Positions 146 through 4,535 of a stretch of 64,000 nt of DNA are shown piece after piece. The position numbers and the translations under genes were made by a program. Within the stretch, counting starts at the first letter, position 1, and every line of letters begins with the position of its first letter. The notes beneath the pieces are model-generated. The model ran no database searches and was not told the origin of the DNA. It saw only the letters and a program-made list of their open reading frames with translations. The stretch comes from Deltaproteobacteria bacterium (GTDB lineage: Bacteria; Myxococcota_A; Polyangia; Haliangiales; Haliangiaceae), in contig JANXOM010000072.1 in NCBI GenBank assembly GCA_025353585.1, positions 1-64,000 of the forward strand, written 5' to 3'.

Positions 146-2434
146 TTATTTCGATCCGCTGGCCGTCCAGGCCGCAAAGTAGCCGCACTCCTTGAGCACC
201 TCTTTATAGTAGCGAGTGCTCGCGTAGCTCTTGAGGACCGCGTACCAGGTGTGCGGGACGACGTCCGGGTCGGGCCCGTTGACGGCCTGGTCGGTGGGGG
301 CCGGCGCGCTCGTCAGGTTGCGATCGCGCTCGCACTTCGCGGCGAGGAACGCGGCCTTCGCCTTCAGCTCGCGGTCCTTGGTCAGGTCGTAGGCGCGCTT
401 GTACCAGCGCTCGGCGGGGCGCGTGTCGAACGTCTGCTCGTGCGACTCGTCCGTCAGCGCGCGCGCGTTGCCGTACCAGGTCGCGTTGTAGAGCCCGTTG
501 CCGAGCTCGAGCGACGCCGCGGCGGCCGCCTCACCCGTGCCGTTCGCCGTCTTCGCGAGCGTCGCCATGCGATTCGCGATGCTCGCGGGCGTCCACGCCG
601 CGTTGACGTACGTTTCGTGATCGCAGTCGTGGCAGTCGTTGATGTGAATGACGAACGGGTCGGTGTGCAGCGGGGCCGCGCGGAGCTTGAGCGCGTCGAA
701 GCCCTTGAGCGCGGCGGCGAAGTCGCCGTCGAGGAGGTTCCGCAGCGCGAGGTCTCGCTGCAGTTGCTCCTTGGTGATCGTGGTGTGCACGACGAACTTG
801 TCGAAGTCGGTCGCCGTCACGCCGAGGCGCGCGATCATCTCCTTGATGAACGCCGCCTCGGTCCACTTCGACCTGTCGTACGGGTTGGCGGTGGGGCGGC
901 TCGAGTACTCGTCGAGCGGGACGAGCGTGTTCGGATCGAGCATCTCCGCGTCGACGAGCTTGCCGGCGGCGAGGTACGCCTTCGCGAGCCGGCCGCGGAC
1001 CTCTTCGTGCACGGCCTCCTGGCGGTCGTAGCTCTTCGTCGCCTCGACCGCGAGCATCAGCTTCGCGAGCTCGTCCTCGTGGGCCGGGTTGATCTTCCAG
1101 TCGAAGACGAGCGCGAGCGCCAGGCTCGCCTTGCCCTGCGCCACCACGCGCGGGTCGCCCGGACGGGCGGCGAGGGCCTTCTGGATGTGGGCGCGGGCCG
1201 CGGCCACGTCCCCCCGGCGGGCCGCGATGTGCCCGATGACGAGCTCCATGACCCACGGCTGGTCGGTCCCCGGGGCCGCGGCGAGCGTCGTGGCGAGCTG
1301 CTCGAGCGTCTTGTAGGCGGCCTTCGCGGCCGCGAGCTGCGCGGGCTCGACTTTCTGGCCGTACAAGCCGACGCTCGAGCTCGCGCTCTCGATCCGCGCG
1401 AGCTCGCGGACGACGAGCAGCGACGCGAGGTTCGACTTCGGATCGAGCTTGATGATCTCGCGGACGGCCGCGAGCGGGTCGGCCTTGATGCCGACGAGCC
1501 GCCATAGCGCCGTCTTGTCGCGGGTGGTCGTCGCGAGCGCGAGCGCCTTCTTCCAGTCGCCGTCCTCCATCGGCTGGAAGTCGCGCATCGCGTAACCGGC
1601 GAGCGCCGGATCATCGGCGGCGATCCGCGCGAGCTCGACGTTCGCCCGGGCCCGCTTGTCGTCGTGCCGCAGCGCGCCCGCGTAGTAATACCGCGCGCGA
1701 AACGCGAGGTCCTGCGAGGGCGCGAGGAGCGTCGGCGCGCTCGTGTCGAACTGCTTCTCGACGGCGGCATACTCGCGGCGATAGAACGTGACGCGCAGGA
1801 TCTGGAACGCGTAGCGCTGGCGCAGGAACGCGTCGGCGGCGGGGACGGCGGCGAGGCCCGCCTTCGCGGCCGCGAGCAGCTCGGGCGCGGGGAGCGGCGC
1901 GACCTTCGGTTGCCCGGACTCGGCGTAGCCGCCATCGAAGCTGTCGACCTCCTCGACGCGGCGCGCGAGCTGCACGAACGCGACGGCCGCGCGGAGCTTG
2001 TCCACCGGCGCGCTCTTGCTCCAGATCGAAGTCTTCTCCATGCCCGCGGGGACGGTCTTGGCCTTACCCGCGAGCCGCGCCGCGACCGCGTCCAGATCGG
2101 CGGACTTCAGCTCGTAGAGGACGTGGGCCCAGTCGGCGTCGGTGACGGCGGGGCCGAGGTAGCCGCGCCAGTCGGCGGCGATCGCCTTGGTGAGGCACGC
2201 GTCGCAGCGGTCGCCGTAGCCCGCGACGTTGCCGTCGAAGAACAAGCCGGGCCAGGTCGCATCGCCGATCACGGCCGGGTCGAACGTCGTCTCGAGGGCG
2301 ATGGTGGGATCGCCGCCGGTGCACGCGCGCACGTCGCCATCGCGCAAGGCGGCGGACCCGGCCACGAGGACGCCCGCGGCGACAGCGAGCCTAGCGAACG
2401 GTGTCGTAGAGATGAGCGAGCGAGGCGAGGCCAT
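146..2434 (-). CDS. Hypothetical secreted/TPR-like protein, Cys-rich N-terminal region (ACTGGD..., CDACL)
   Basis: 762-aa ORF, signal-like N-terminus (RLAVAAGVLVAGSAAL), helical repeat-rich composition. Confidence 0.8.
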   Translation of the reverse strand: MASPRSLISTTPFARLAVAAGVLVAGSAALRDGDVRACTGGDPTIALETTFDPAVIGDATWPGLFFDGNVAGYGDRCDACLTKAIAADWRGYLGPAVTDADWAHVLYELKSADLDAVAARLAGKAKTVPAGMEKTSIWSKSAPVDKLRAAVAFVQLARRVEEVDSFDGGYAESGQPKVAPLPAPELLAAAKAGLAAVPAADAFLRQRYAFQILRVTFYRREYAAVEKQFDTSAPTLLAPSQDLAFRARYYYAGALRHDDKRARANVELARIAADDPALAGYAMRDFQPMEDGDWKKALALATTTRDKTALWRLVGIKADPLAAVREIIKLDPKSNLASLLVVRELARIESASSSVGLYGQKVEPAQLAAAKAAYKTLEQLATTLAAAPGTDQPWVMELVIGHIAARRGDVAAARAHIQKALAARPGDPRVVAQGKASLALALVFDWKINPAHEDELAKLMLAVEATKSYDRQEAVHEEVRGRLAKAYLAAGKLVDAEMLDPNTLVPLDEYSSRPTANPYDRSKWTEAAFIKEMIARLGVTATDFDKFVVHTTITKEQLQRDLALRNLLDGDFAAALKGFDALKLRAAPLHTDPFVIHINDCHDCDHETYVNAAWTPASIANRMATLAKTANGTGEAAAAASLELGNGLYNATWYGNARALTDESHEQTFDTRPAERWYKRAYDLTKDRELKAKAAFLAAKCERDRNLTSAPAPTDQAVNGPDPDVVPHTWYAVLKSYASTRYYKEVLKECGYFAAWTASGSK

Positions 2435-3533
2435 GATGCGCGAGGTTCCTTTCCGACAGATCGAACAGCGTGACGGTGCGAGCGGAGGTGGCGACGGGGA
2501 GCGTGGGCGCGACGAGCTCGGCCGCGGCTTGCGCCTCGGCTTCCCCTGTCACCTCGATCTTGAGCGCGTCGCCGGCACGGAGCAATGTTCCGTGCAGGAA
2601 CGTGGTCTCGGTGACGACGTAGCGATCGGGGGTGGCGTGGTCGAGGAAGGGCAGGCCGGGGAGCTCGTCGGGGTCGGTGCTCTGCAGGAGGCCGACGACG
2701 ATGCCGTCGCGCAGCTGCACGGTCCACGACCAGATCGGGAGCGCCACGTCGAGGGGAAGCGGATACGTCGGGATGCGGGCGAGGTAGCGGGAGGCGCTGG
2801 CCGCGTCGAAGATGGCGCGCGCGTCGGGATCGGCGCTGAAGTTGCCCATGTTGTAGAACATGAGCGTGCCGCGGTCGACGGGCGGGACGCCGGTGCGCTC
2901 GCGGTACTTCACCTGGTGCAGGCGGATCGTGGCCGTGAGGATGGTGCCGGCGGGCGCGGCGGCGCGCAGGCCGGCGACGAACGCGAAGTAGCCGGCCCGC
3001 GTCTGGTCGGTCCAGTCGCAATCGAGTTGCACCTCGTGCGGCGAGGCGCCGAGGGTCGCCGTCCGGTGCGCGATGCTCTCCCAGGTCGTGCGGGCCGCGG
3101 CGGCCGCGCCGGCCTCGCCGAGGTGGTCGCGGGTGAAGATGCCCTGGCGCACGAAGACGACCGGCACGACCTCGATGCCGGCGGGCACGCGGTCGCTCGC
3201 CACGAGCGGACCGGCCTCGGCGGTCCCGTGGGCCGCGTCGTCCCAGACCACGTCGAACATGCGGACATAGAGCCGCTCCACGTGCAGCTCCGCGAGCGCC
3301 GTCCGCTCTGCCGGCGACAGGGCAAACGTCGTCCGCCAGAAGTAAAAGGCGCGGTGCGAGGCCGGCCGGGCAGCGGGCGCGGGCGAGGCGCACGCGAAGA
3401 GAAGACGAACGGCCAAGCCGCCGAGGACGCCGAGCCAGAGCCACGGTCGGAGCTTGCTCGACCCTGACCTTGGCTCTGGCGTGGCGTCCTCGGCGGCTTG
3501 GCGGTCAATCCCCGCACGCGCGAACGTCCTCAC
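2391..3533 (-). CDS. Hypothetical secreted protein (possible glycosidase-like/unknown fold; ...FYFWRTTFALSPAERTALAELHVERLYVRMFDVVWDD...)
   Basis: Long ORF; candidate GTG start at 3533 overlaps the TGA stop of the upstream epimerase (GTGA); hydrophobic segment PWLWLGVLGGLAVRLLFACAS near the N-terminus. Confidence 0.7.
   Translation of the reverse strand: MRTFARAGIDRQAAEDATPEPRSGSSKLRPWLWLGVLGGLAVRLLFACASPAPAARPASHRAFYFWRTTFALSPAERTALAELHVERLYVRMFDVVWDDAAHGTAEAGPLVASDRVPAGIEVVPVVFVRQGIFTRDHLGEAGAAAAARTTWESIAHRTATLGASPHEVQLDCDWTDQTRAGYFAFVAGLRAAAPAGTILTATIRLHQVKYRERTGVPPVDRGTLMFYNMGNFSADPDARAIFDAASASRYLARIPTYPLPLDVALPIWSWTVQLRDGIVVGLLQSTDPDELPGLPFLDHATPDRYVVTETTFLHGTLLRAGDALKIEVTGEAEAQAAAELVAPTLPVATSARTVTLFDLSERNLAHHGLASLAHLYDTVR
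3412..3502. repeat. Palindromic repeat: 35-bp inverted arms (3412-3446 / 3468-3502, 32/35 matching, outer 20 bp perfect) with a 21-nt loop
   Basis: gccaagccgccgaggacgcc...ggcgtcctcggcggcttggc read directly from the sequence. Confidence 0.9.
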
Positions 3534-4535
3534 AGCATGCCGTGGGCGCGGAACCAGGTGAGCGCGTCGCGCAGAGCAGGGGCCAGCGGGCCGGGCCGGT
3601 AGCCGAGCTCGCGGGTGGCCTTGGCGTGCGTGAAGCGGAAGCGGTCGGTGAACGCGTAGCGGATCTGCGTCGAGTTGACGATCGGATCGCCGCCGAACCG
3701 CTCGACCACGTCGCCCCAGGCGCCGACCACGCGCGCCACCGGGTGCGGCACCCGGAGCCGCGGCGGGCGCGTCCCGGCCGCGTCCGCGATCGCCCGGAAC
3801 GCATCGCCGTACGTCATGTCGTGCCCGCCGAGGATGTAGCGCTCGCCCCGCGTGCCGCGCTGCCACGCCGCGATCATCCCGCGCGCCACGTCGCGCACGT
3901 CGACGAAGTTGTTGTGCCCCGGCGTCCACCCCGGGACGCGGCGGCGCACGACGTCGAGGATCAGCTTCCCCGAGCTCGGGCGCGCGTCGCGCGGGCCAAA
4001 CATGTACGTCGGGTTCACGATCACGGCGTCCAGGCGACTACGCGCGCCGCGCACCGTTTCTTCCGCCCGGTGCTTCGTGATCGCGTATGCGTCCGTGAAG
4101 CCCTCGCGGTCGAAATTCCACACCGCCGTCTCGTCACACGGGCGGCCGTCCGTCGACAGGCCGATCGCCACCACCGAGCTCGTATGGACGAGCCGCGCGA
4201 CGCCCGCCGCCACGCACGCGTCGATGACCCGGGCCGTGCCCGTCACGTTCGCCTCCGTCATCTCCGGCGTGACGGCGCGCTTGATCGTGACCATCGCCGC
4301 GCAGTGGAAGACCGCCGCGCAGCCCGCGAAGGCCGCCGCGAGCGCGTCCACCGACCCCAAATCCGCGTCCCGCCACGTGATCGGGACGTCCGCCAGGTGC
4401 GCCACGCGCGTCCCGCCGCGCCACGCGCGTCCCGCCGCGCCGCGTCGCCACGACCTCGTGCCCCGCCGCGACGAGCTCGGCCGCCAGGTTCCCGCCGAGG
4501 AGGCCGCTGGCTCCGGTGATGGCGACACGCGTCAT
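3530..4535 (-). pseudogene. NAD-dependent epimerase/dehydratase (extended SDR), frameshifted by a 19-bp tandem duplication
   Basis: N-terminus MTRVAITGASGLLGGNLAAELVAAGHEVVATRRGGTRVA is in one frame and the rest (HLADVPITWRDADLGSVDALAAAF...) in another; removing one 19-bp copy joins them (987 nt = 329 codons including stop). Confidence 0.85.
4401..4438. repeat. Perfect 2 x 19-bp tandem duplication (gccacgcgcgtcccgccgc)
   Basis: Copies at 4401-4419 and 4420-4438 are identical. Confidence 0.97.

Follow-up and report, generated by a model that had tools for sequence, protein, structure and literature searches.

The 64,000-nucleotide stretch analysed here (the window; positions 1 to 64,000 of contig JANXOM010000072.1, assembly GCA_025353585.1, from a deltaproteobacterium of the Haliangiaceae) carries a palindromic repeat element whose core, at 3405-3510, lies within the 5' end of a gene for a lipoprotein-type envelope protein (2391-3533, minus strand, 380 amino acids). 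We think it probable that a REP-like palindrome of a kind that trails stop codons landed in the start of this gene, and that it now codes for most of the predicted export signal ahead of a native LLFAC lipobox (3390-3404, minus strand). The same kind of capture seems to have occurred at least three more times in the genus.

The 106-bp core is matched by a model of the repeat family (described below) on both strands, at 106.2 bits on the minus and 99.6 bits on the plus strand. An inverted-repeat search delimits two arms of 40 nt (3409-3448 and 3466-3505, plus strand) that are complementary at 36 of 40 positions (90%) and are separated by a 17 nt spacer. A preliminary description, made from the letters alone, had reported 35-bp arms at 3412-3446 and 3468-3502 with a perfect outer 20 bp. 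These arms sit within the longer ones, and the outer 20 base pairs are indeed unbroken in the minus-strand fold, which reaches -83.5 kcal/mol, whereas shuffles average -44.4 (z = -10.7) and none of 200 is equally stable. The flank CGTGCGGGG beside the core (3511-3520, minus strand) is common to several other copies (cgtgcgggg / gagcgggg) and is probably part of the element. A scan against Rfam returned just two microRNA models, both far under their gathering scores and best regarded as long-hairpin artefacts.

The source genome is a draft of 8.0 Mb in 437 contigs, estimated to be 90% complete, and the element is dispersed throughout it. The 106-bp sequence gave 90 matches and a pattern for the terminal arms 89 (11 for the reversed control), while a covariance model made from 23 aligned copies gave 126 matches over both strands, or approximately 63 places. 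The element is therefore not single-copy, and a plain terminator or single-copy hairpin is ruled out by the same dispersed copies. Full copies measure about 95-140 bp and follow the consensus GAYTRACCGCCAAGCCGCC..GGACGCCAAGCCGGAGCCAAGG..loop..CCTTGGCTCCGGCTTGGCG..GGCGGCTTGGCGGTYARTC, the family end reading ...GTTCGTC in aligned copies. With 79-80% likeness to the consensus the window copy is about as diverged as typical copies, and its insertion is thus not obviously recent. When the covariance model was searched in 55 related genomes, 9 of 15 further genus members had matches, as did one of 40 genomes of other genera, the latter at a borderline E-value; the palindrome family is genus-specific. 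Full-length copies near the window type were confined to the own genome, and the terminal CCGCCAAG arm is also present alone, as shorter units, in relatives. The resemblance to dispersed motifs of other bacteria that the preliminary description suggested finds modest support, as the exact 17-base terminal motif ACCGCCAAGNCGCCNAG is patchily present elsewhere in the phylum, in 22 out of 188 other genomes and mostly at 1-2 copies each. In one copy of the own genome (L075:2021-2171, corresponding to C15:3620-3770) an arm has grown into a run of GACGCCAAGGACGCCGAG units, which suggests slippage within the arm.

Placement relative to genes was assessed with a simple codon-usage gene caller, trained on the window and run around 67 element intervals, so that the following counts rest on that caller and on a draft genome. 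Copies were found at 27 convergent, 25 tandem and 5 divergent junctions, with 9 overlapping gene calls of which few are truly coding, versus 20 convergent, 144 tandem and 29 divergent among nearby junctions that lack one (p = 2.7e-9). The distance from stop codon to element is narrow, mostly 9-25 nt. Given this narrow spacing and the excess at convergent junctions, the family is primarily a gene-3'-end repeat in its own genome. It alters C-termini too, since a TGA or TAA within the element terminus acts as the gene's own stop at 12 gene ends; terminal GAYTGA/GATTAA supplying the stop can be seen at L040, L046, L048, L056, L057, L058, L061, L068, L100, L107 and L137. The window copy keeps to the usual post-stop spacing, its core ending 19 nt from the stop of the upstream gene (3530-4528, minus strand), which encodes an NAD-dependent epimerase/dehydratase (SDR) and whose start is uncertain (4405 by the gene caller). 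At L141 and most other overlaps between genes and elements, an ordinary start lies just past the element or the frame is an opposite-strand shadow, and these were set aside.

What distinguishes the window copy is the gene that follows. The SDR gene stop overlaps the next gene's start as GTGA (3530-3533), and the element consequently lies in coding DNA. The GTG (3531-3533, minus strand) is the only plausible start, and the protein predicted from it begins MRTFARAGIDRQAAEDATPEPRSGSSKLRPWLWLGVLGGLAVRLLFAC. The frame is open across the element and reads RQAAEDATPEP (3471-3503, minus strand), a segment of the n-region, from one arm and the hydrophobic stretch PWLWLGVLGGLAV (3408-3446, minus strand) from the other, in agreement with the preliminary description; upstream of LLFA, back to about codon 10, the protein consists entirely of element sequence. 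A true start downstream of the element would have undone that description, but no usable one was found, and the element hence makes up the gene's N-terminal coding portion. The gene body retains all positions invariant among orthologs and has no frameshift, so the gene is not visibly decayed, and its product has no match in Pfam, NCBIfam or PDB.

Orthologs of the window gene, 50-59% identical, were found in five relatives. Their signals are short and of the ordinary lipoprotein type (MRARHGGWWTLAIALSIALVAC, MNRPDLVALALVVGLLAGC, MTRLLAAALVVAYAVGC, MRLRLTLLIALVGAIASC and MRILALLVLGMAWAC) and end at the same Cys, which is invariant in six orthologs and stands 13-14 residues ahead of FY[FY]WRT. 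No palindrome comparable to the element was found upstream of any of the five. Among genome contigs the window protein has no close relatives, only remote Bacteroidota homologs at 31-35% identity, lipoprotein-like as well, and as a result no same-species empty site is available. The proposal of a REP- or MITE-like palindrome captured as an export signal thus stands in that the element is REP-like and dispersed, is absent from orthologs, which carry unrelated and ordinary signal peptides, and forms the coding N-terminus. It has to be narrowed in that the LLFAC lipobox is native: what comes from the element is the n-region and the larger part of the h-region, and the family is foremost a gene-3'-end repeat.

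We propose that a genus-specific REP-like palindrome, which settles directly behind stop codons, would have inserted behind the SDR gene stop and would thereby have separated the start codon of the lipoprotein gene from its lipobox. Translation, coupled to that of the upstream gene, would begin at GTG 3533, and because the frame through the element is open it would read the entire palindrome, the arm frame W-L-x-L-G-V-L-G-G-L-A-V taking the place, in front of the native LLFAC, of the ancestral signal-peptide core. Both initiation at this GTG and membrane targeting of the protein are sequence-based predictions, and the insertion was presumably tolerated or neutral rather than adaptive. In the own genome about half of the tandem junctions (70/144) are 10 nt or less apart or overlap, so some insertions would hit the opening codons of the gene downstream. 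Signal peptides are tolerant of changes in the n-region and accept any core that is hydrophobic enough, and such insertions could therefore survive there. Of 246 frames in full-length copies, 145 are open (59%, as against 42% in shuffles). A hydrophobic exit, defined as a Kyte-Doolittle mean of 1.6 or more over 12 residues, occurs in 20 of these 145 open frames versus 1.2% in shuffles. The hydrophobic exit is a built-in property of one arm frame.

Parallels were sought by screening element exits for genes without a start after the element, and three further in-frame cases emerged, one in the own genome (L059) and two in a relative, G008 (L167 and L165), whose further copies showed no fusion besides these two. 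In L059 (C41:39034-39082) a half element reads MASPWRLARRLRPLGGYLLCALTAVASA/EPAK, the GTG overlaps the stop of the upstream gene (TAGTG), and orthologs have plain signals, e.g. VKLALVGLLVASVASA/EKP and VIRALAVLALSLHGGAVLA. L167 (contig C791) holds a full element, in the order ATGAAGAA, palindrome, CTGGTTCTTTCGCTGGTCGTGCTGTGCGCGTCCTGC (LVLSLVVLCASC). Of its 12 orthologs, 11 start with ATGA over the upstream stop and have a short lipoprotein signal, e.g. MKRLVLLCALAAC, at an uninterrupted site, the twelfth being cut by a contig end. Here the element inserts a stop in the old frame, yet a GTG that lies on the edge of the element, 8 nt downstream of AGGAG, begins a new open frame that spells LLGVLGALGG directly ahead of the native core. 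L165 (contig C920) likewise holds a full element, with ATGAGCCGCCAAG at the element edge and the reading MSRQERQERQ...SWRLTLRFCAALLAVTSC/GEE. Judged by their signals, the genes of the window, L059, L165 and L167 all encode exported proteins. Separately, at L208:1020-1270 (G004 C201), in the ortholog of the L165 lipoprotein gene, we observed a different palindromic unit, GGGGACAGAYACGACTTGCACAACTT..., at the 5' end and in 3 copies in the locus; it seems to supply the RQVVQVVSVP of the signal MSWRRQVVQVVSVPMLGC. This may be a second capture at the same orthologous signal peptide, of an unrelated repeat.

Several observations weigh against capture of a working signal in the window. The best 10-residue Kyte-Doolittle mean of its signal is 2.01, versus 2.6-3.1 in orthologs, and its n-region is long, at about 29 residues. 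The element also places an unfavourable Arg (3405-3407, minus strand) at -5 from the lipobox Cys, a departure from the usual lipoprotein pattern, and the signal is altogether poorer than those of the orthologs: Cys and LLFA are conserved in position, but the Arg of the window copy falls in the stretch from -5 to -10 that is expected to be free of charge. The three third-position changes of the coding arm do not go beyond those of intergenic copies and have the same spread over positions, and so do not independently point to selection on the part that the element encodes. With no same-species empty site to compare, it is moreover impossible to reconstruct the exact junction in the window. Of the four cases, the window has the least convincing signal.

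Such weaknesses lend substance to an account in which the element is purely a non-coding hairpin at the 3' end of the SDR gene (a REP-like transcript end or stabiliser) that cut off the start of the downstream gene and left its 5' end damaged, the frame being open by coincidence and the protein either failing to be exported or never being produced. The position of the copy fits the family's normal post-stop site, most frames in full-length copies are open anyway (the 59% given above), and the Arg at -5 and the weaker hydrophobicity point the same way. Against this, the gene body is intact at every invariant position, the divergence of the copy is about typical and speaks for no obviously recent insertion, and use of such readings is argued for by the three in-frame parallels, one of which has a well-placed start together with a Shine-Dalgarno sequence. 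We consider this account unlikely, although it deserves to be taken seriously. Much less probable, to the point of being marginal, is that the true start is an atypical codon or the TTG inside the element (3414-3416, minus strand), with the palindrome giving only a few residues. This TTG is the sole other in-frame start ahead of the conserved mature domain, but it leaves MAVRLLFAC, too short for a signal peptide with 8 residues before the Cys as compared to 14 or more in every ortholog, and a GGCGG stands immediately before the codon and hence at the wrong spacing, whereas GTG 3533 has the stop/start overlap that is also present in orthologs of the parallel cases. Finally, the hydrophobic N-terminus could be ancestral coding sequence that is palindromic by chance, as an open frame taken by itself would allow. 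This is already contradicted by the approximately 63 places with the same sequence, almost all of them intergenic, and by the orthologs that do not have it, and we give it virtually no credence.

Capture of a palindrome as an export signal has its nearest published precedent in Yersinia, where YPO1552 has a predicted signal peptide formed in part by the element RU-2 (YPAL element; Delihas 2007, PMC2759123; also PMC2229807). Homologs of YPO1552 in other genera have unrelated signal sequences (Delihas 2007, PMC2759123). As in that case, our palindrome lies within a predicted signal peptide and related proteins have unrelated signals. In contrast to RU-2, sequence and lineage are different, orthologs show the signal as it was ancestrally and, in the case of one relative, also the site without interruption, and a recurring cause (post-stop insertion at overlapping stop and start codons) is visible together with several independent cases. 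Since the general idea is thus not new, what is gained is mechanism and recurrence rather than principle. Rickettsia palindromic elements (RPE), the classic in-frame palindromes, are units of roughly 100-150 bp with long stems that occur in frame in protein genes (Ogata 2000, via PMC2229807 and PMC10969869). Our family is similar in size, stems and in-frame reading within protein genes; on the other hand RPE often lie inside open reading frames, while the present copies are nearly all intergenic and the coding cases, a small minority of copies (the window, L059, L165 and L167), occur solely at the 5' ends of genes for exported proteins.

REP sequences and REPINs, which are associated with RAYT transposases and are the classic extragenic palindromes, are dispersed and mostly found outside genes, close to gene 3' ends (PMC2817692, PMC3116915, PMC8266576). 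The same can be said of the approximately 63 places found here, and Y1_Tnp genes exist in the genome, but full copies exceed the 20-40 bp REP unit (about 100-120 bp as a rule) and no clear copy was found beside a Y1 transposase. Seven Y1_Tnp (IS200-type) matches, six above the Pfam cut-off, are on contigs C323, C69, C30, C421, C262, C117 and C315 of the own genome (G000) as candidate RAYTs, and none of them has a clear element closer than 1.5 kb (best 13.3 bits; the draft genome is incomplete). Terminal inverted repeats, as expected of MITEs, are present, yet target-site duplications were not detected among 41 copies (the longest direct match shared by the two flanks was 4.93, versus 4.89 for shuffled pairings, P = 0.45). 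In the absence of such duplications and of an adjoining transposase, the mobility claimed in the preliminary description is inferred from copy number. The family thus resembles RU-2, RPE and REP but departs from REP and MITE in at least one tested feature each, and we call it REP-like without assigning it to either.

The window gene is a member of a conserved lipoprotein family, with the motifs FYFWRT, DCDWT, RLHQVKYRERTGVPPV and LMFYNMG, that occurs in this bacterial family and in Bacteroidota. Downstream, a 762-aa gene without a Pfam match (146-2434) begins within the 3' end of the 2391-3533 gene, and since this overlap recurs beside the orthologs L032, L033, L034 and L036 the pair looks conserved.

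One could go further and suppose that a genus-specific palindrome with a latent hydrophobic arm is a recurrent and retained donor of signal peptides, repeatedly rewiring the export signals of envelope proteins through insertion behind stops that overlap the next start; we consider this unlikely. The family shows how non-coding mobile palindromes can turn into protein. Its preference for sites behind stop codons, combined with compact operons in which stop and start overlap, puts the repeat into the n- and h-region, the part of a protein that is tolerant of foreign sequence, and orthologs without the insert make it directly testable whether an export signal arose from repeat DNA.
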